From Chlorobiota bacterium (GTDB lineage: Bacteria; Bacteroidota; Ignavibacteria; OLB7): a stretch of 36,204 bases of DNA. Position 1 is the first letter of the stretch. Each line of letters starts with the position of its first letter. Below are positions 4,669 through 32,874 of this stretch, in pieces. Below the pieces are notes generated by a model. It searched no databases. It saw only the letters and a program-made list of their open reading frames with translations, and was not told the origin of the DNA. The stretch is taken from contig JAEUSP010000046.1 in the NCBI GenBank assembly GCA_016788565.1, forward strand, positions 1 through 36,204, read 5' to 3'. A program made the position numbers and the translations under genes.

Positions 4669-5456
4669 TTCTGAACACCGAAGCCGTGGTGCTGCACACG
4701 CGGCGTTTTAGCGAAACCAGTCTGATCGTCACGCTCCTGACGCGGGAGCGTGGGAAGATCACGGTGCTTGCGCGCGGGGCTTTCCGGCCAAAAAGCAAGT
4801 ACGCTTCGGTGCTTCAGCCAATGGGCTATTTGCGGCTGATTTTTTACTGGAAGGAAGGGCGCGACCTGCAAACCCTTTCCGCCGCCGAAACCATCGAACG
4901 ATTCCCCCGGCTGGCAAGCTCGCTGGAAAAAATGACCGCAGGGCTAACAATCCTTGAACTGGTAAACGCCTGCCTTCACGACGACGGCGCGCACCCGCAA
5001 CTGTTCAGCGACCTTGTTTCCGCACTGCGCGGGCTGGATCAGCCGAACGTGCAGGAATCCGCCGTTACGCTCTGGTTTATGGCGCGTCTGGCCAACGAAC
5101 TTGGATACGCCCTGCGAAGCGATGAATGCGGAGTGTGCGATGAAACGGTTTCCGTGCGCGAAGAAAATATCCCGTACAGCATCCCGATGGGCGCGCCCCT
5201 TTGTGCCGAACACACCGGCGCGGCAAGCTACCGCCCGTTGCCAACGCAATCGTGGACGCTGCTTCGCGAAGTGCTGGCGGTGCAACCGGAATATCTGCAC
5301 AGCGTCACCGCCAGCACCGCTGCTGCAACGGAGTTGTACGATACCATTTCCGCTTTTATCAAGTTCCATGTGGAGGGGATGAAACGCCTGCGGGTAAGCC
5401 CCGTGGCGGGGAAAATCCTGGCGCAACAGGGGAACGTCATCACCAACACCGAATAG
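4665..5456 (+). CDS. recO: DNA repair protein RecO
   Basis: 263 aa from GTG 4665, in the normal RecO size range. The N-terminal OB-fold (1-80) has the typical opening V-I-L-x-T-E-A-V-V-L and the RERGKITVLARGAF strand-loop. The middle and C-terminal part is the helical domain, with a small zinc-type site C155-x2-C158 ... C180-x2-H183. RecO binds single-stranded DNA and RecR, and helps load RecA onto SSB-coated gaps (RecF pathway). An upstream ATG at 4593 would add 24 residues (GAASIAPPRSC...) that look unlike RecO and overlap the 41-aa membrane ORF. The GTG start fits both the family and the GTGA overlap. Confidence 0.92.
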   Translation: MILNTEAVVLHTRRFSETSLIVTLLTRERGKITVLARGAFRPKSKYASVLQPMGYLRLIFYWKEGRDLQTLSAAETIERFPRLASSLEKMTAGLTILELVNACLHDDGAHPQLFSDLVSALRGLDQPNVQESAVTLWFMARLANELGYALRSDECGVCDETVSVREENIPYSIPMGAPLCAEHTGAASYRPLPTQSWTLLREVLAVQPEYLHSVTASTAAATELYDTISAFIKFHVEGMKRLRVSPVAGKILAQQGNVITNTE

Positions 5457-5577
5457 CACGGAGTGCGCGTAGCGAAGCATCAATATCTACCGAGTTGCCA
5501 GCTTGGTGCCAACACCAACAGAACAACCAACAACAACACAGCCTAACGATTTTTTTGCAAGGAAGGAGAACACAGCG

Positions 5578-7116
5578 ATGAACAGAAAACAAGGGTTCAT
5601 TGTCGGCGGCCTGATGGCTGCCTCGGTAGTGGTGGGGGCCTTGATCGCCACCGATTTCCGTCAGATACCGTTCGGCCTGGCCGGACCCGACGTGAAACTT
5701 GGTGCCGATGCTCCGCCAGTCGTCCCGTCGAACGAAGTAAAAGTGCTGAACGATGCCTTTGTTGCCGTCAGCAAAGCCGTAACCCAGCAAGTCGTCAGTA
5801 TCGAAGTCACCACCCGTGGTGAGCAGGCTTCCAACCAGGAAGAAGATGAGGGGGATATGTTTGGCGGGCCGTGGGGTGGGTTCAATTTCAAAATGCCGAA
5901 CACACCACAACGCGGTTCCGGCTCGGGGGTGATCATCACCCAAGATGGCTACATCCTGACCAACAACCACGTTGTGGAATCCGCCGAGCGGGGAACGATT
6001 GAGGTGGAGCTTGCCGACGGACGCAAGATGGATGCAACGCTGGTCGGGCGTGACCCGCTGACCGATCTGGCGGTGATTAAAGTTGAAGCCACGGGCCTTC
6101 CCGTTGCCGCCTTTGCCAACAGCGACGAAGTTCAAGTTGGCCAGTTTGTGATTGCTGTTGGCAACCCGCTGGGGCTGAACTCCACCGTCACCCAGGGGAT
6201 TGTCTCGGCACTGGGCCGCGGGCAGCTGAACCTGAACCGTGACGAAAAAGGCTACGGCGTGGAAGATTTCATCCAGACCGATGCCGCCATCAATCCCGGG
6301 AATTCCGGCGGCGGATTGTTCGATCTGCGTGGGGCGTTGGTTGGGATCAACTCCGCAATCGCTTCGCGCACGGGATATTACCAGGGCTACGGCTTCGCAA
6401 TCCCGATTAACCTTGTCCGCGCAGTTGCTCAAGATTTGATTGAAGATGGGAAAGTGAGCCGTGGCTACATCGGCGTGAAAATCGAGCCGGTGAGCCAAAG
6501 CCTGAAAAAGGCGTTGGGGATGGGAGCCGAAGATGGCGTGCTGATTCAAGAAACCATGCCCGGGACCTCAGCCTCGGATGCAGGGCTTCGGCAAGGGGAT
6601 GTGATCCTAACGGTTGATGGCGTTCCGGTGAAAACACCGAACCACCTGCAAAACTTGCTTGCCCAAAAACGGGCTGGCGATGAAGTGAAACTGAAAGTCT
6701 TCCGCGACGGCAGCACCTTTGAAAAAGGGGTGAAACTGAAACCACGCGCCGAAGATGCCCAAGATGAATCATCGGCCAGCAACAACACCCGCGAACAACG
6801 TGATGAATCCAGCGACAGCCGCCAAACCGCCAAACTGGGAGGGCTGGGAATGGAGGTCCAGACGCTGGACGGCACAATGAAGAAACGGGTTGGCGTGGAT
6901 AACGGCGTGCTGGTGACCAGCACCGAGATGTACGGCGAAGCGATGACGCAAGGGATCAGCAGCGGTGATGTGATCGTTTCGGCAAACCGCAAACAGCTGA
7001 AAACCGCCGGCGACTTGCAGGCGATTGTTGATGATGCCAGCAAAGGTGATGTGATCCTGATGCAGGTGAAAGCCCGCGGCGGATCAACACGGTTGGTGGC
7101 TTTAGAGGTGAAGTGA
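5578..7116 (+). CDS. degP: DegP/HtrA (Do-like) periplasmic serine protease
   Basis: 512 aa from ATG 5578, preceded by AAGGAAGGAGA at good distance. An N-terminal hydrophobic segment (about 7-25) acts as signal peptide or anchor. The trypsin-like domain has the complete triad H131 (TNNHVVES), D163 (DPLTDLAV) and S243 (NPGNSGGG). Two PDZ domains follow: about 303-395 (RGYIGVKIEPVS...GDVILTVDG) and about 425-510 (LGGLGMEVQTLD...GDVIVSANR). They are separated by a polar, Asp/Ser/Gln-rich linker. A charged, Gly/Phe-rich LA-type loop (about 85-110) separates the first strands, as in DegP oligomers. The protein degrades or chaperones misfolded envelope proteins. A single gene with a hairpin after it. 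Confidence 0.95.
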   Translation: MNRKQGFIVGGLMAASVVVGALIATDFRQIPFGLAGPDVKLGADAPPVVPSNEVKVLNDAFVAVSKAVTQQVVSIEVTTRGEQASNQEEDEGDMFGGPWGGFNFKMPNTPQRGSGSGVIITQDGYILTNNHVVESAERGTIEVELADGRKMDATLVGRDPLTDLAVIKVEATGLPVAAFANSDEVQVGQFVIAVGNPLGLNSTVTQGIVSALGRGQLNLNRDEKGYGVEDFIQTDAAINPGNSGGGLFDLRGALVGINSAIASRTGYYQGYGFAIPINLVRAVAQDLIEDGKVSRGYIGVKIEPVSQSLKKALGMGAEDGVLIQETMPGTSASDAGLRQGDVILTVDGVPVKTPNHLQNLLAQKRAGDEVKLKVFRDGSTFEKGVKLKPRAEDAQDESSASNNTREQRDESSDSRQTAKLGGLGMEVQTLDGTMKKRVGVDNGVLVTSTEMYGEAMTQGISSGDVIVSANRKQLKTAGDLQAIVDDASKGDVILMQVKARGGSTRLVALEVK

Positions 7117-18585: not shown

Positions 18586-19329
18586 ATGATAACGAACTAT
18601 CATAACCGCATCATACAGGGTGATTGCTTAAGGATCATGAAGCAGTTGCCAGATACCGCATTTGATCTTGTGGTGACATCGCCACCATACAACCTGAAAA
18701 ATTCCACTGGGAACGGCATGAAAGATGGGAGAGGTGGAAAATGGAAAAATGCGGAATTAGTGAATGGATATTCCCACCACGACGACTGTATGCCGCATGA
18801 TGAGTATGCTCAATGGCAGTATGAGTGTTTAACGGAGATGTACCGCCTTTTACGCGATACGGGGGCAATTTTCTACAATCATAAGTGGAGGGTGCAGGAC
18901 GGAATTTTGCAAGATAGAGCGGATATTATCCGCGATCTGCCTGTCCGGCAAATCATCATTTGGAAAAGAAAAGGTGGGATCAACTTTAATGCTGGCTATT
19001 TTTTGCCAACGTATGAAGTCATCTACCTAATTGCAAAGCCTGATTTTAAGCTGGTGCCAAAGGCCAATGCTTTCGGTGATGTTTGGGAATTCAAGCAGGA
19101 AATGAAAAATGATCACCCCGCTCCATTCCCAGTGGCATTAATCGAGCGGGTTATTGCCTCAACGTTTGCAAAAAACGTTCTTGATCCTTTTATGGGAAGC
19201 GGAACAACGGCTATTGCTGCGTTAATGAGCAACCGCAGTTATACAGGAATTGAAATATCGCCTGATTATTGCGCTATGGCACAACGCAGGATTGATACTT
19301 TCCACCAACAAACTCAGCTTGTATTTTAG
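18586..19329 (+). CDS. Type II DNA methyltransferase, beta class (N4-cytosine or N6-adenine)
   Basis: 247 aa. The catalytic motif IV TSPPYNL is near the N-terminus (residues 31-37), while the AdoMet-binding motif I FMGSGTT comes near the C-terminus (about 199-208, DPFMGSGTTAIAAL). This order defines the beta class of amino-methyltransferases. It ends with the IEISPDYCAMAQRRI motif. SPPY-type motif IV is frequent in N4-cytosine enzymes but also occurs in N6-adenine enzymes. It modifies the host's own recognition sites so that the adjacent endonuclease does not cut. It is followed after 5 nt by the endonuclease gene. Both genes are much AT-richer than fumC and the PBP gene on either side, a sign of horizontal acquisition. 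Confidence 0.9.
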   Translation: MITNYHNRIIQGDCLRIMKQLPDTAFDLVVTSPPYNLKNSTGNGMKDGRGGKWKNAELVNGYSHHDDCMPHDEYAQWQYECLTEMYRLLRDTGAIFYNHKWRVQDGILQDRADIIRDLPVRQIIIWKRKGGINFNAGYFLPTYEVIYLIAKPDFKLVPKANAFGDVWEFKQEMKNDHPAPFPVALIERVIASTFAKNVLDPFMGSGTTAIAALMSNRSYTGIEISPDYCAMAQRRIDTFHQQTQLVF

Positions 19330-19334
19330 AAACT

Positions 19335-20390
19335 ATGAAAACAGTGAACATTTTGGCCGAATTTCAAAATAAGTGGCACAATACTTATTGGTTTTCAAGG
19401 ATGCTAATCAATAATGATAAGTATGGGGCAATCGGTAAAGAACCGGAATTGCTTGCTATGCTTGCAAGCAGTTTGCGGGTTATTGCACGTGAAAATAAAA
19501 ACGATGATACTCTGGATTTGCAAAAGCAGGCCATCCGGAATATCATTGAGGGGCGTTATCGAAAAACAACTTCAAAAGATAACCGCATTCAACTTTTGCT
19601 GAAGGAACTTGGAGAGGAAATAAAAACTTCTGATGATATGAATGTTTTTATTCTTACATGCGAAAATGTCATGCTTCCTCTTCATCAAGCTATTACAAAC
19701 ATCCCAAGCACTGACAGAGAATTTGCCCTGAATATCGCTAAATCCTATCTGGACGTGCAGGGAGAACAAGGCTTAGCACAGGTGATTTCTCTTTGGGATG
19801 ATCTTGGTGTTAAAGGATGCTTGACCGCAGAACGAACTGAGATTGTGAGAGCCTTCACAACGCTGCGCATACTTTTAACAAAAGACCAATCGTTTTCTGA
19901 AGAAGATAGAGACATTATACTCACAGCATTTACTCAAGAATTTGAAAGAAGAGCGGCACAAAAACGCAAAAAAAGAGCTGGCGGGAGTTTAGAAGATGTG
20001 ACCGATTTCATTCTTGGCTATTATAAAATTAAGCGTGCACAAGCACCAGCACACTTTCAAGCAGACCTTGAAGTTGATAATTGGGTAAAAACAAAGGATG
20101 GCTGGTTGATTGGCATCTCCTGTAAGAGAACACTGCGTGAACGTTGGAAAAACGTGAGTAGTAGCACTGAAATCTACAACCGTTTTAAAGTCAAACACAT
20201 TTTTCACGTGGTGACGTTCGATGAAGATTTATCCGACGATAAATTGACGATACTCGGCGAACAACGCCAAGTGTTTTATCTTCCCGACAATAGCCGTCGC
20301 TTGCAATATGCGCTGGCTCATGTCGGACTTAAAAATTACGTCCGACCAATTTCGCAGCTTATTCGCGACCTCAAGGAGCAGGTCAAATAA
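19335..20390 (+). CDS. Type II restriction endonuclease (PD-(D/E)xK fold)
   Basis: 351 aa, directly after the methyltransferase. The N-terminal two thirds are helical and have no family I can name. The catalytic part begins RAGGSLEDVTDFIL (residues about 215-227), a helix typical of restriction enzymes. It continues with D248 (EVDNW) and the strand LIGISCKRTLRERW (258-271), which provides Lys264. In place of the usual E-x-K there is S-x-K, with a later Glu (E279), similar to the displaced-acid active sites of the EcoRII/PspGI/NgoMIV group; K-x-T-x-x-[KR]-[DE]-R-W is especially like EcoRII. Members of that group recognise sites containing CC or CCGG-like cores, so a CC-containing site is a reasonable guess. 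AT-rich like its partner. Confidence 0.83.
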   Translation: MKTVNILAEFQNKWHNTYWFSRMLINNDKYGAIGKEPELLAMLASSLRVIARENKNDDTLDLQKQAIRNIIEGRYRKTTSKDNRIQLLLKELGEEIKTSDDMNVFILTCENVMLPLHQAITNIPSTDREFALNIAKSYLDVQGEQGLAQVISLWDDLGVKGCLTAERTEIVRAFTTLRILLTKDQSFSEEDRDIILTAFTQEFERRAAQKRKKRAGGSLEDVTDFILGYYKIKRAQAPAHFQADLEVDNWVKTKDGWLIGISCKRTLRERWKNVSSSTEIYNRFKVKHIFHVVTFDEDLSDDKLTILGEQRQVFYLPDNSRRLQYALAHVGLKNYVRPISQLIRDLKEQVK

Positions 20391-28307: not shown

Positions 28308-28476
28308 GAAGTTCTCTCCAGTAAGTAGGATATGTTGGACTGAGTTTGAAGTAGCAGAAAAAGCCAGAAGCTGCCACCGAATCGGGTGGAGTAGCTTCGC
28401 CGCCAAGCATTATCTGAGGGATAGAATGCGGATGCAAAGTTCGCACCCTGACGGCAAACCAAATGTAAGAGAAAAG

Positions 28477-29232
28477 GTAACTATTTAGGTGCCCCGAATT
28501 CAGATGAGTGAAAGATGGTTGGGTAAACTTCGTTAAGATTCTGCCAATGTCAAAGCAAAGAATGGAACTTCCAGAGACCATAGAAGGTTGCCACAAACTC
28601 TGATCAGAGAGTTGATGGCAATGATTGAAGGTTTACGAACCGAACTACAGAAGCTCCAGCATCAGCTCAACCAAAACAGCCGCAACAGCCACCGTCCACC
28701 CAGCAGCGACGGGCTGACAAAACCAGGGATTCCCAAACCACCATCCGGCAAAAAACAGGGTGGACAATTTGGTCATCGCGCATCGCGGCAATACGCTAAC
28801 AATGGTGGAGACACCCGATGAACGAGTGGAGATTCGTCCCGAAGTGTGCGAGCATTGCCAGAAGAAATTTACCGGCCGCGAGCACTATCACCTCAAAAGC
28901 CGCCGCCAAGTCTTCGATCTGCCGCCGATGACCTTGCAGGTGAAAGAATATGCGTCGTATGGATGCCGGTGCACGCGGTGTGGGAAAGAGAATCAGGGAG
29001 CGTATCCCAGAGGAGTGACCGCACCGGTACAATATGGCTCAGGAGTACGGTCGTTGGTGAAGGTAAAAGTAGCGGGATGCTTCCGAACGATTCTTGGAGC
29101 GGCGCAGTACGCACGAATCAACAGTTTTTTCTCAACCGTTCGGAAGCAGAAATTCAACCCCTTCACAGAATTATTGAAGGTTTTTAACGGTAGTATCCCC
29201 GATTATCGTTTGGGGAGCACCTAAATAGTTAC
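28477..29232 (+). mobile_element. Internally deleted IS66-type element (756 bp)
   Basis: The element is bounded by inverted repeats that match perfectly for 16 bp: GTAACTATTTAGGTGC (28477-28492) and its complement (29217-29232). The GTAA tip is the hallmark of IS66-family ends. Inside are the N-terminus and extreme C-terminus of an IS66-type TnpC, and no room for tnpA/tnpB, so it derives from a single-gene (ISBst12-like) member. The expected 8-bp target duplication is absent (GAGAAAAG versus GGGGCTTC). This suggests an old insertion with rearranged flanks or movement without duplication. Confidence 0.8.
28547..29224 (+). pseudogene. IS66 transposase remnant with two frameshifts and an internal deletion
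   Basis: Reading starts at ATG 28547 (MSKQRMELPETIEGCHKL) and leaves frame at a CT duplication (28598-28601). The second frame gives IRELMAMIEGLRTELQKL and the IS66 hallmark NSRNSHRPPSSDG. It is left again at a 7-bp tandem duplication CATCGCG (28774-28780 and 28781-28787). The third segment gives GNTLTMVETPDERVEIRPE and the zinc-finger cysteines CEHC ... CRCTRC. The DDE core is missing: after about 29080 the sequence jumps to the C-terminal piece ARINSFFSTVRKQKFNPF. The stop lies inside the right inverted repeat. The 2- and 7-bp insertions add to nine, so the frame is restored overall. Non-functional. Confidence 0.85.
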
Positions 29233-29470
29233 GGGGCTTCTTTGTTTATCTATGTTTAGTGTGCAAAAGCAGGGAGGAGAGGAAAGTAGAAAGTAGGAAA
29301 TAGAAGGAGGGGGGGGAGAGGCCACTGAATCCAGCACTCCGCTCATGCAGAATCCCATCGAAGTATGAATAGAGCCATCGGACGGCCGCCTGCCATTAGA
29401 TTACAAAAAATTAATGTGACCATTCAGAGCAAAGTGGTGTTATATCTAATAAGCACCCCAATAACTTTCC
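29233..29470. other. Spacer between IS66 remnant and sigma factor gene
   Basis: About 240 bp: a G-rich purine run (29297-29320), a decayed REP-like palindrome, and an AT-rich segment (29400-29470) that probably holds the promoter of the island operon. I cannot point to a convincing -10/-35 pair. Confidence 0.5.
29337..29374. repeat. REP-like palindromic element, copy E (decayed)
   Basis: The left arm CTCCGCTCAT is intact, the right arm is ATGAATAGAG instead of ATGAGCGGAG, and the centre is mutated. The order GCTCATGC..CCATCGAAGTATGA..AGAGCCA is recognisable. It marks the edge of the AT-rich island. Confidence 0.65.
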
Positions 29471-29501
<31 letters not shown>

Positions 29502-29505
29502 CCCC

Positions 29506-30027
29506 ATGGGTACTGCACCTCCTCCTCACAATGACGAGTTCCTTGAATTTATCGCACGCCAGATGCGTTCTATACATCATTGGTTAGGCCGATACCTGCC
29601 TGAGCCTGAAGATCGGAAGGATGTTCTTCAGAACACGCTCATAGCTGCATGGTTTGCCAGCAAGAATCTCACCCCAGATACTCCAATAGTGGCATGGCTG
29701 CACCAGATTGCTAAACACCAATTATCGAACTGGATGCGCAGAGAAAAACGCAAAGGGCCTCTGCATCCATCACGGGTGAAACTTGATGAAGAGTGTATAG
29801 CCGCGCTGCAGGAAGGTGAAGAATTTATAGAGGTAGTGAATATGGACTTGTCCAGGTTGCTCTCAATCTTGCCTCTTGAAACCCAGAAGCTGATTCTCCA
29901 AATTCATCTTGAAGGATACAGCTACGGAGAAATAGCAGAACAGCAAGGATGCACGGTTTCCTCAATAAAAATGAAGGTGCACCGGGGGATGGAGAAGATG
30001 AAGAAGGTGGCGAGGGGAGATATCTAA
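29506..30027 (+). CDS. ECF-type RNA polymerase sigma factor
   Basis: 173 aa. Region 2 spans about 8-85, with LGRYLPEPEDRKDVLQNTLIAAW (core binding) and TPIVAWLHQIAKHQLSNWMRREKR (-10 recognition). Region 4 spans about 113-168: LLSILPLETQKLILQIHLEGYSYGEIAEQQGCTVSSIKMKVHRGMEKM, a helix-turn-helix for the -35 element. No region 1.1 or 3, which is typical of ECF (group 4) sigma factors. No anti-sigma gene is adjacent. The two secreted small proteins and the CxxC protein follow in the same direction and are its likely targets or operon partners. A simple repeat precedes the start and no good Shine-Dalgarno sequence is visible. The gene is AT-richer than the chromosome around it. Confidence 0.9.
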   Translation: MGTAPPPHNDEFLEFIARQMRSIHHWLGRYLPEPEDRKDVLQNTLIAAWFASKNLTPDTPIVAWLHQIAKHQLSNWMRREKRKGPLHPSRVKLDEECIAALQEGEEFIEVVNMDLSRLLSILPLETQKLILQIHLEGYSYGEIAEQQGCTVSSIKMKVHRGMEKMKKVARGDI

Positions 30028-30100
30028 ATTGATAAGGAAAGCGTACGGGATACTATCCCTATGTCAAATAAATCAATCACAAAAACAAGAAGGAGCTAAG

Positions 30101-30493
30101 ATGAAAACACGCATCAGCATGGCGTCGATAGCTGTAATTCTGGCCATGGTAGCGCACTCGACCATGGTAACAGCAACAACACTAATCAAAATCTACAAAG
30201 AGGGTGAAGGTGAAAATGGGTACTATGACGTTCGCGAAATGCATTCAACAGATTATTCTGGAAATCAGCATCACACGTTAGAATGCTATCAGCCAGGTTC
30301 AAAAAAATGTAAATGGGAAAGCGCGCCGATAGGTAGATTGATTGAGTATGCAGAAAATCAGATACTCAATGGTTTTCTTGTCGGAACATATCAAGAGACA
30401 TTCAATTCTGTGTTGTACCGTGTCCAGTGGTCATCAGTCGGCAACAGAATCGAAATTCAAGAAACACAAGAGGATATCTCCTCAATAAACTAA
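30101..30493 (+). CDS. Small secreted protein, paralogue 1
   Basis: 130 aa from ATG 30101, with AAGGAG 5-11 nt before it. A signal peptide (MKTRISMASIAVILAMVAHSTMVTA) leaves a mature chain of about 105 residues that is hydrophilic and acidic. It has two cysteines, C62 and C70, in the pattern C-x2-PG-x3-C-x-W. Shared with the next gene are GY.DVRE.H, D..GN..H, the Cys pair, and GRLIEYA.DQI..G.L.G..Q. I know no family with this pattern; an oxidised Cys pair suggests an exported, disulfide-bonded small protein. The open frame reaches back to 30029 but the ribosome-binding site and signal peptide support 30101. Confidence 0.8.
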   Translation: MKTRISMASIAVILAMVAHSTMVTATTLIKIYKEGEGENGYYDVREMHSTDYSGNQHHTLECYQPGSKKCKWESAPIGRLIEYAENQILNGFLVGTYQETFNSVLYRVQWSSVGNRIEIQETQEDISSIN

Positions 30494-30522
30494 ATATCAC
30501 ACACGCTAAACAGGATAACGCC

Positions 30523-30924
30523 ATGAAAACGAAGTACCACAAATTAACCGCAACAGCTTTAATAGCCGCAGTTCTCTGCTTAATTATAAGTAGTGTTATG
30601 TATGCTAAAACAAAAGATATTTATATCAAGACGGATGAAGACCGAAGTGGATACAATGACGTGAGAGAAACGCATGACATTGACAACGGCAATGAATATC
30701 ATCAGCTATTTTGTAATGATCCAGGACTAAGCCTATGTCAATGGCAATATAATCCATGCGGAAGGTTGATTGAGTATGCAAAAGACCAAATTGAGATTGG
30801 CATTTTAAGTGGTCAGCATCAAATTCAGGAGAATTTTATCACCTATACAGTGACATGGGGTAATACTGAAAATGGAGATAGCTTCATTAAAGAAGTTCAA
30901 ACTATTAATGACCCATTAAATTAG
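30523..30924 (+). CDS. Small secreted protein, paralogue 2
   Basis: 133 aa from ATG 30523, 29 bp after paralogue 1. N-terminal signal sequence (MKTKYHKLTATALIAAVLCLIISSVMYA). The mature part aligns with paralogue 1 over its whole length, sharing GYNDVRETHDID..NEYH, the C64-x7-C72 pair with PG in the middle, and GRLIEYAKDQI..GILSGQHQ. It has an additional cysteine, C79 (NPCGR). About a third of positions are identical by eye, so this is an old tandem duplication rather than a recent one. Function unknown. Confidence 0.8.
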   Translation: MKTKYHKLTATALIAAVLCLIISSVMYAKTKDIYIKTDEDRSGYNDVRETHDIDNGNEYHQLFCNDPGLSLCQWQYNPCGRLIEYAKDQIEIGILSGQHQIQENFITYTVTWGNTENGDSFIKEVQTINDPLN

Positions 30925-30941
30925 TCTCCAAACTACAGCAA

Positions 30942-32765
30942 ATGAAGCAAACCTATCTACTGTACCCTTTGAACAATGGCAGTACGCATCTTATGCGTAC
31001 TGCCATTCGCAGCTTTCAGTATGGCATCGTAACTATGCTACTCGTGTTGAGTTGCGTGAATATATGCCATTCGCAGCCTACACCCACAATCTATAGCGTA
31101 TTTCAAACAGATTCCATCATATCAATCCCTCTTAATGAAAGGCCAAGTAATTTTCAAATTTGCTTTGATGGATCAAAAAACTACATTGTTGATGAAAACA
31201 GCCCAAAGAATCAAATTTTATTGAGAAATGCGAGCCAATGGCTTGATGATACCTTGCTGCTTGCTCTTCCTGATACGTTGTTGAATAGTAGATCGAGAAT
31301 TCAGTCAATATCAATGAACAAGCAATTCATAGTGATATCAGTATATAAGAATGTCTTTTTATTTCAAAGGATTCAAAACTCAGCAAAATATGTTCGTTTT
31401 TATGAAGTGCGCTTTCCGTGTAATTATATTAGAATTTTAAACAATACTATCGTTGGTATTTCTAGCAAAATTTCAAACATTAATCATCAAAATAAAGAGA
31501 ATGCGGCATGGCTTTTTAGAATTCCGTTAGCTGATACAGCGCATTATTATGATGGCGTAAAGCTAATTGAACCTATAGGCCTTGAATTTGATTATTTCGC
31601 TCCACAAGTTCATGTCGCTATTACTGATTCAGTAGTAATGATCGCAGATATTGTTAATTATCAAATTAGAATCTATAATCATTATGGAAATTTAATAGAT
31701 AGTCTTTCCAGAAGTACTCCATTGTGGTTTGCTAACCGTCTATACATACAGAATACAAGTTTAAAAGATAGTCTCCGAAGCCTTTCTCAATATCCAAAAA
31801 ATTGCATTGAATTGATTCGACCTTATTTTGATAGCATCAGAGTGCTTAGGCATATAGCAATGCTCAATAACAATCAACTGTTGGTTGCTTGGCAGCTTCC
31901 TGATCGCTGGATACGGAAGGATAAAACGATTGGGCCACCCAAGATGGAGTATGATGTATGGAAATATGAAAACAATAAATGGAGTCCATCAAGCATTGAT
32001 TTGACAGATATTTTGCCTGAGCCAAGTGATTCCATCGCCAGTTTTAATAACAACACTTATTTAGGCTTTAATTATTACTCTACTGATGAAGGTTTGTATA
32101 GGGTAAACCGTTGGATTCCTGAAGGTATCAACACTTCACCCTTGACATATAATGATGTTTATAGAATTCAAGATAGCATTGCTGCAATCGATAAAAATTG
32201 CTTTGCTCTATTTAGAATTAGAATCAAACCAAATGATTCACTGGTAAAGGCAAACAAAATAGAAAAATCAGAGAACCAGATTGAAAAAATGCGAACCGAT
32301 TCTTTGGTTGGCTGCACGATCAATTCTTCCCCTGAAAAGTTGTACTCTCCTGATAGTACAACTGCTGTGTTATTGCTCAATGACTATAACTGCCATGATT
32401 GCATAATCAAAACAATCAAGGCTGTTGAATATTCTGTTCAGCATACTCAAAATCCCGTAAGGGTGCTTATGCTGACACGAACGCGCAAATCAATGACAAG
32501 CAGAAAAGAGGCAATCAAGAAATATCAAAAAATATACAAGGATCATCAGCTGTTGTTTGATTGCCCCAATAGTGACAACGATAGTTGGCCACCAACTGGC
32601 ATTACTAACGGTGTTTTTGGAATGTTCGGTGTATCCAAAACGCCTGTTTTGATTGTGATTCACAAGAATCAAACAATCGAATTCATGAATTACGAAAAGA
32701 TTGACAATCTTATGGATAACCCGAATGAATTGCGTAATCAGATTGATATGGCTTTTTCTAATTGA
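30942..32765 (+). CDS. Large secreted protein with C-terminal thioredoxin-like CxxC domain
   Basis: 607 aa from ATG 30942; 590 aa from ATG 30993, which gives a neater signal peptide (MRTAIRSFQYGIVTMLLVLS...) and may be the true start. The middle (about 60-420) is a long beta-rich region without a family I can name; short strands and W/Y/D repeats suggest a propeller. The last 140 residues form a thioredoxin-like domain: TTAVLLLNDYNCHDCIIKTI with C484-x2-C487, then VRVLMLTRTRK, and SKTPVLIVIHKNQTI with the cis-proline after Thr (about 568). It follows the two Cys-pair proteins and may oxidise, reduce or transport them. Very AT-rich. Confidence 0.75.
   Translation: MKQTYLLYPLNNGSTHLMRTAIRSFQYGIVTMLLVLSCVNICHSQPTPTIYSVFQTDSIISIPLNERPSNFQICFDGSKNYIVDENSPKNQILLRNASQWLDDTLLLALPDTLLNSRSRIQSISMNKQFIVISVYKNVFLFQRIQNSAKYVRFYEVRFPCNYIRILNNTIVGISSKISNINHQNKENAAWLFRIPLADTAHYYDGVKLIEPIGLEFDYFAPQVHVAITDSVVMIADIVNYQIRIYNHYGNLIDSLSRSTPLWFANRLYIQNTSLKDSLRSLSQYPKNCIELIRPYFDSIRVLRHIAMLNNNQLLVAWQLPDRWIRKDKTIGPPKMEYDVWKYENNKWSPSSIDLTDILPEPSDSIASFNNNTYLGFNYYSTDEGLYRVNRWIPEGINTSPLTYNDVYRIQDSIAAIDKNCFALFRIRIKPNDSLVKANKIEKSENQIEKMRTDSLVGCTINSSPEKLYSPDSTTAVLLLNDYNCHDCIIKTIKAVEYSVQHTQNPVRVLMLTRTRKSMTSRKEAIKKYQKIYKDHQLLFDCPNSDNDSWPPTGITNGVFGMFGVSKTPVLIVIHKNQTIEFMNYEKIDNLMDNPNELRNQIDMAFSN
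30975..31007 (+). promoter_or_regulatory. Perfect 15-bp hairpin over the alternative start of the CxxC gene
   Basis: AATGGCAGTACGCAT (30975-30989) and its exact complement (30993-31007) with a 3-nt loop. The right arm begins with the ATG at 30993. In RNA this would be a very stable hairpin that sequesters that start codon. There is no U-run after it, so it is not a standard terminator. It could lower expression of the large protein relative to the two small ones, or be melted by ribosomes starting at 30942. Confidence 0.75.
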
Positions 32766-32813
32766 ATGAAATCACAAGGATTTTCGCAAACCACTTTCGT
32801 GGAAGCATAACTC

Positions 32814-32859
32814 AAAAAAAAATGGAGTTGAGACCGCAATCTCAACTCCATTTTTTTTT
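32814..32859. terminator. Bidirectional intrinsic terminator
   Basis: Perfect 20-bp inverted repeat (32814-32833 / 32840-32859), A9 on one side, T9 on the other, core TGGAGTTGAGA, 6-nt loop. It separates the convergent CxxC gene (plus) and OmpA-like gene (minus) and marks the right edge of the AT-rich island. A TTCGCAAACCACT motif shared with 1556-1568 lies just before it (about 32783-32795). Confidence 0.93.
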
Positions 32860-32874
32860 GCTGTTGATACTCTG

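Follow-up and report, generated by a model that had tools for sequence, protein, structure and literature searches.

What would a bacterium gain from two small proteins, predicted to be exported and each with one conserved pair of cysteines, encoded directly ahead of a larger protein, likewise predicted to be exported, that ends in a thioredoxin-like CxxC domain? The question is raised by positions 29506 to 32765 of a 36,204-nucleotide stretch of a Chlorobiota bacterium genome (assembly GCA_016788565.1, contig JAEUSP010000046.1), the whole of which is here called the window. The original prediction, made from the sequence alone, saw an undescribed cassette in which the CxxC protein acts on the disulfide of the small proteins (SP1 and SP2; SP for their family) and a sigma factor of the extracytoplasmic function (ECF) type switches the set on. 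We found that the set is real. It comprises three protein families absent from Pfam and NCBIfam, namely SP, a propeller-like protein and a thioredoxin-like protein, and these recur together, whereas the sigma factor is not conserved with them. The four same-strand genes lie exactly where they were first described, with gaps of 73, 29 and 17 bp:

29506..30027, + strand: ECF-type sigma factor, 173 amino acids (Pfam Sigma70_r2 1.6e-9 and Sigma70_r4_2 1.2e-11; TIGR02937 5.5e-21, over cut-off)
30101..30493, + strand: SP1, small protein predicted to be exported, 130 amino acids, with C62-x2-PG-x3-C70 (family alignment A8; AlphaFold2 (AF2) model)
30523..30924, + strand: SP2, paralogue of SP1, 133 amino acids (alignment, 42% identity)
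30942..32765, + strand: 607-amino-acid fusion predicted to be exported, with a propeller-like N-terminal part and a thioredoxin-like C-terminal part (alternative start at 30993)
32310..32762, + strand: thioredoxin-like domain, residues 457-607 of the fusion (Foldseek, VIA-align; CHDC at 32391-32402)

Recurrence was surveyed in one class of Chlorobiota/Kapabacteria-type genomes, in which the named matches were Chlorobiota and Candidatus Kapaibacterium metagenome-assembled genomes. Profiles were used for SP (alignment A8, 38 members), the thioredoxin (A9) and the propeller (A10). The SP profile matched 26 of 391 genomes of the class and the propeller profile 25 of 294. Relatives of the 607-amino-acid protein were found in several families of the class and were not detected in viral contigs or plasmids. 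A separate contig scan returned only three loci, in G128, G160 and G196. G128 belongs to the same family as the window and encodes an SP of 131 amino acids, a propeller-like protein of 442 and a separate lipoprotein-like protein of 188 with the motif CHSC. More generally, a propeller-like gene of about 400 amino acids adjoins 31 of the 36 SP genes with a readable neighbourhood, nearly always accompanied by a CxxC thioredoxin-like gene; the outcome named beforehand as contrary to the proposed link, SP homologues mostly lacking a CxxC partner, did not occur. The gene order is almost always SP, propeller, thioredoxin, with the thioredoxin first in G561. The thioredoxin call is weak in G136, none was detected at the second cassette of G627, the contig ends in G674, and three genomes of family f52 have only a weak match, in a gene upstream of SP. 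Altogether, the same trio stands in the same order at about 30 loci, which belong to roughly ten families of the class. Judged by the window alone, the genes could have been chance neighbours in an AT-rich island, unconnected in function, and a congener does lack the region; because the trio recurs, this explanation is already refuted, and we give it a negligible probability. Moreover, gene distances over 23 cassettes are correlated between SP and propeller (Mantel, 0.42) and between propeller and thioredoxin (0.57; p 0.0002), so the three genes largely travel together.

The propeller and thioredoxin families are fused in the window and at two loci of G627. The single window open reading frame matches both the propeller and the thioredoxin hidden Markov models (HMMs; 3.9e-105 and 3.5e-48), each of which was built with the window sequence among its members, and the two are separate genes elsewhere. 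Neighbourhood, fusion and cysteine conservation thus tie the CxxC domain to the small proteins, as had been proposed. The N-terminal two thirds of the fusion, overlooked at first reading, are a diverged propeller-like protein, a name that rests on a distant relation to the 6-bladed DUF5128 propellers (hhalign probability 95%, E 3e-8; HMM 1.8e-5). The model of the fusion is confident only at residues ~457-607, with a predicted local distance difference test (pLDDT) score mostly <60 for residues 36-460. The C-terminal part models as a thioredoxin fold, as anticipated (Foldseek probability 1.00, E 4e-4), with the CxxC at a helix start and a cis-Pro. Its CHDC occupies residues 484-487, with the Thr-Pro further on. 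Its nearest folds are thioredoxins of the ResA, TlpA and StoA type, and VIA-align superposes 120 residues on ResA (1st9) with Z 10.9 and a root-mean-square deviation of 3.1. The true start of the protein may be the ATG at 30993, where the signal peptide begins.

SP1 and SP2 are the only SP copies in the 4.58-Mb window genome. Both carry C-x2-P-G-x3-C, so the cysteine pair ascribed to them stands, but it is not the only cysteine of SP2, whose mature part has a third. The other shared motif is also present, with the corrected form GRLIEYA[EK][ND]QI in place of GRLIEYA.DQI. The AF2 model of SP1 (pLDDT 74) has three strands, a helix and three strands. Because the best structural matches reach only Z 5.1 (VIA-align) and E 0.15 (Foldseek), no SP fold is claimed. 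Searches of Pfam, NCBIfam and PDB sequences gave no usable match for SP or for the thioredoxin and propeller parts, and the sigma factor is the only cassette protein of the window that Pfam or NCBIfam recognises. Two side observations concern single SP genes. At L091 (G502), positions 6014-6084 hold 11.8 copies of the hexamer AGTGAG at the 5' end of an SP gene, which would read as a His-Ser run if translated. At L045 (G279), positions 4890-5810 hold two SP genes from which the cysteine pair has been lost; they lie beside a NuoD-like gene and have neither a propeller nor a thioredoxin next to them.

The only conserved cysteines of the three families are the SP pair and the thioredoxin CxxC. The former are kept in 89% and 82% of 38 SP sequences, and the latter in 100% of 30 thioredoxins (cis-Pro, 97%), while no column of the propeller alignment exceeds 21% cysteine (of 42). 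In addition, SPs lacking the full pair mostly have no propeller next to them (29/1/2/4, Fisher p 0.0012; coded by hand from the neighbourhood listings of 36 SP genes), the exceptions being L103, the second SP of L013, and L039. Conserved residues also bear on a resemblance to the mau cluster, in which a small cysteine-bearing subunit, a propeller subunit and the thioredoxin-like MauD occur together. By this parallel, drawn from general knowledge, SP would be the small catalytic subunit of a methylamine-dehydrogenase-like enzyme, the propeller its large subunit and the thioredoxin a MauD-like maturation factor. The cassette has the same three kinds of part, MauE-like genes occur at sister loci, and one SP tryptophan is nearly invariant (97%). 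However, this is the only conserved tryptophan column; since the second (C-x-W) is absent from many members, there is no conserved pair for a tryptophylquinone. SP also has only two conserved cysteines, no part matches a mau family, and genes for MauG, a cytochrome or an oxidoreductase were not found next to the cassettes. With the defining cofactor residues and genes of the mau cluster missing from the cassette, we regard such an enzyme as very improbable.

A further recurrent element lies between the small gene and its partners. In the window, two hairpins were found:

30975..31007, + strand: perfect 15-bp hairpin with a 3-nt loop, just 3' of SP2 (RNA fold z -4.46)
32813..32860, no strand assigned: strong terminator-like hairpin at the cassette end, common to an OmpA-family gene on the opposite strand

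The alternative start codon of the fusion sits in the 3' arm of the first, a hairpin that the original prediction did not mention. The 150 nt after the SP stop reach a fold z below -3 in 14 of 30 cassettes, compared with 29 of 198 for other gene ends of the same loci (p 1.6e-4), and perfect stems of at least 10 bp occur in 13 of 30 compared with 18 of 198 (p 1e-5). The stem sequences differ between cassettes. Hairpins placed in this way often keep the product of the first gene at a high ratio. Since they are far commoner after SP than after other gene ends, they suggest that SP is made in excess over the downstream genes.

On these grounds we propose that the cassette is a dedicated extracytoplasmic redox system by which a small exported disulfide protein, present in abundance, is matured or reduced, and we give this reading an even chance of being correct. 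SP1 and SP2, with one conserved cysteine pair each, would be produced abundantly from the leading part of the operon, and the hairpin behind the SP gene would set a lower level of the propeller and thioredoxin downstream. The propeller part would dock the small protein, and the CxxC domain would reduce or rearrange its disulfide and thereby mature SP or keep it active outside the cytoplasm. The window genome encodes a DsbD homologue, which could recharge the thioredoxin domain. The thioredoxin probably handles the SP cysteine pair. As for direction, ResA/TlpA-type thioredoxins are reductive, and because these are the nearest relatives of the fold, reduction or isomerisation is favoured over oxidation.

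Several observations weigh against this proposal. The SP of G632 (L103) has lost its second cysteine, yet propeller and thioredoxin are kept; G192 has a cysteine-less extra SP within an intact cluster; and an orphan SP at G314:C9 retains both cysteines. Propeller-thioredoxin pairs without a recognised SP occur at L016, L139, L140, L142, L143 and L145, where an SP may have escaped the profile through divergence. The correlation of SP with thioredoxin distances is weak (0.17, p 0.035), and the association tests leave shared ancestry in, as genes of one lineage are not independent. Finally, the propeller fold is without a confident model over residues 36-460.

The role first given to the sigma factor was not supported. 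Pfam finds only sigma regions 2 and 4 in it, which is the ECF-type architecture, and its gene lies co-directionally 73 bp upstream of SP1. A sigma gene also precedes the L012 cassette, so that the trio could be a local piece of an ECF-sigma regulon, that is, an oxidative or envelope-stress set. But a sigma gene is missing from nearly all other cassettes, and the two sigma genes that are present are not detectably related (no mutual match at E 1e-3). At two loci, L013 and L043, a gene for an AraC-type helix-turn-helix (HTH) protein takes the sigma gene's place. Promoter-like sites, scored for the sigma-70 type only, were no commoner than in shuffled sequences. We therefore consider a sigma regulon decidedly unlikely. 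At L013 (664-1126 and 6287-6462) and L043 (3999-4445), an AraC-type HTH-only gene or remnant is followed immediately by an array of 12-13 bp direct repeats ahead of the cassette, with the units TCTGATTTTGTCC and TTTTGTGTTCCGA; these repeats may be binding sites of the AraC-type regulator.

The surroundings of the cassette raise another reading and include the following features:

29471..29501, + strand: (ATTG)7.8 tandem repeat ending 4 bp ahead of the sigma-factor ATG (Tandem Repeats Finder)
28588-29224: degenerate IS66-family transposase piece beside the AT-rich island
28477..32823, no strand assigned: segment that the congener G395 does not have next to either flank (synteny is broken at 28476 and at 32824)

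The AT-rich island noted at the outset is evident, with a GC content of 0.35-0.46 against ~0.57 for the surroundings and genome. DNA similarity to G395, which is 99% complete, ends at 28476 and resumes at 32824, and neither SP, the propeller nor the 607-amino-acid gene was found there. A clean insertion relative to G395 was considered and set aside: both flanks lie on different contigs in that genome, so gain and loss plus rearrangement are not separable. Breaks of synteny on both sides, the IS66 remnant, the sporadic presence of the cassette, SP genes in tandem and genomes with several cassettes would all suit a diversifying secreted factor for competition or signalling, matured or kept from harming its producer by the propeller and thioredoxin, at a locus that is switched on and off. 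Short tandem arrays within 600 bp upstream point the same way, occurring at 10 of 31 cassettes with 3 expected from non-coding DNA (p 0.001); with the comparison limited to non-coding DNA, this enrichment dropped from about nine-fold to three-fold, and it is a lead only. The (ATTG)7.8 array is the only one of at least 5 ATTG units in the 4.58-Mb genome, and slipped-strand switching at it is possible. No similarity to a known toxin, bacteriocin or signal was found in the family libraries searched, however, and no export machinery, protease or immunity gene was recognised nearby. Accordingly, we hold such a factor to be a possible but unlikely explanation.

Some further observations stand on their own. 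The single ATTG array of the congener lies at the beginning of a gene whose 350-amino-acid product looks secreted (L178). A 115-bp element, 75% identical, lies upstream of two different G196 cassettes (L015 3989-4102 and L042 4988-5102). Cassette 1 of L015, with proteins of 89 and 431 amino acids and a CxxC protein, was tried as a sister cassette and dropped, as profile comparison did not support homology. A second AT-rich island of the window (18586-20390) encodes an N6/N4 DNA methylase together with a protein that matches EcoRII-C weakly, and the two are likely a restriction-modification pair.

Among known systems, the closest are the DUF5128 (PF17170)/TolB_like (PF15869) loci, which have the same layout of a small exported cysteine protein, a propeller and a CxxC thioredoxin. 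In the same class we found them at L148, L169, L171 and L175, often as several units in a row and often with MauE (PF07291); an HTH gene stands in front once, and in some the small gene is followed by the same hairpin. At L169 (1-17501, G074:C3), units of MauE, Cys-rich peptide, DUF5128-type propeller and CxxC thioredoxin form a row, and several of the peptides share a near-identical leader but differ in their Cys-rich ends, as though one leader carried a diversified set of peptides. The window-type propellers and thioredoxins, in contrast, match no Pfam or NCBIfam model above cut-off, the PF17170 cut-off being unmet by the window propeller and nine others. By inspection, no MauE-type reading frame lies beside the window cassette, unlike at L148. 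SP, a protein of about 100 amino acids with one cysteine pair, has no recognisable relation to the Cys-rich peptides. NVEALA loci (PF14055) of Bacteroides are likewise said to place small exported cysteine peptides beside propellers and redoxins. SP1, SP2 and six relatives did not match the PF14055 model, which has practically no presence in the genomes sampled from the phylum (0 of 118 over cut-off). Since SP is not recognisably related to the DUF5128 peptides and has no NVEALA match, the cassette is akin to the functionally uncharacterised DUF5128/MauE/Cys-peptide/thioredoxin kind and is filed apart, not as a member. The view of it as undescribed and unlike NVEALA loci therefore holds for its unlisted families, but less so for its layout and its distantly related propeller.

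The individual parts have more remote parallels. The window domain shares its fold, the CxxC at a helix start and the cis-Pro with ResA/StoA/CcmG-type thioredoxins, but it has no sequence-family match, is fused or linked to a propeller, and no cytochrome c or spore context was seen. A thioredoxin-like domain is also joined to a propeller in NHLRC2 (6gc1 in the Foldseek list). NHLRC2, however, is an intracellular animal protein with the opposite domain order and no small cysteine partner. The literature searched contained nothing on NVEALA, on this arrangement or on the function of small-peptide/propeller/redoxin loci. A 6-bladed propeller gene of B. thetaiotaomicron is listed in a table of iron-regulated genes (PMC10434189), which is not informative here.

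Loci of small peptide, propeller and redoxin recur in these bacteria. We tentatively suggest, at a fairly low probability, that the cassettes represent a separate class of extracytoplasmic system that can be switched, whose dedicated propeller-thioredoxin pair would load, activate or deliver a small disulfide protein present in abundance; the widespread DUF5128/MauE loci of Bacteroidota would follow the same logic with unrelated peptides. With one conserved cysteine pair and one CxxC, two point mutations would be enough to probe the proposed redox partnership. The variant described here adds to these loci three unlisted protein families and a common regulatory layout in which a hairpin directly follows the small gene.

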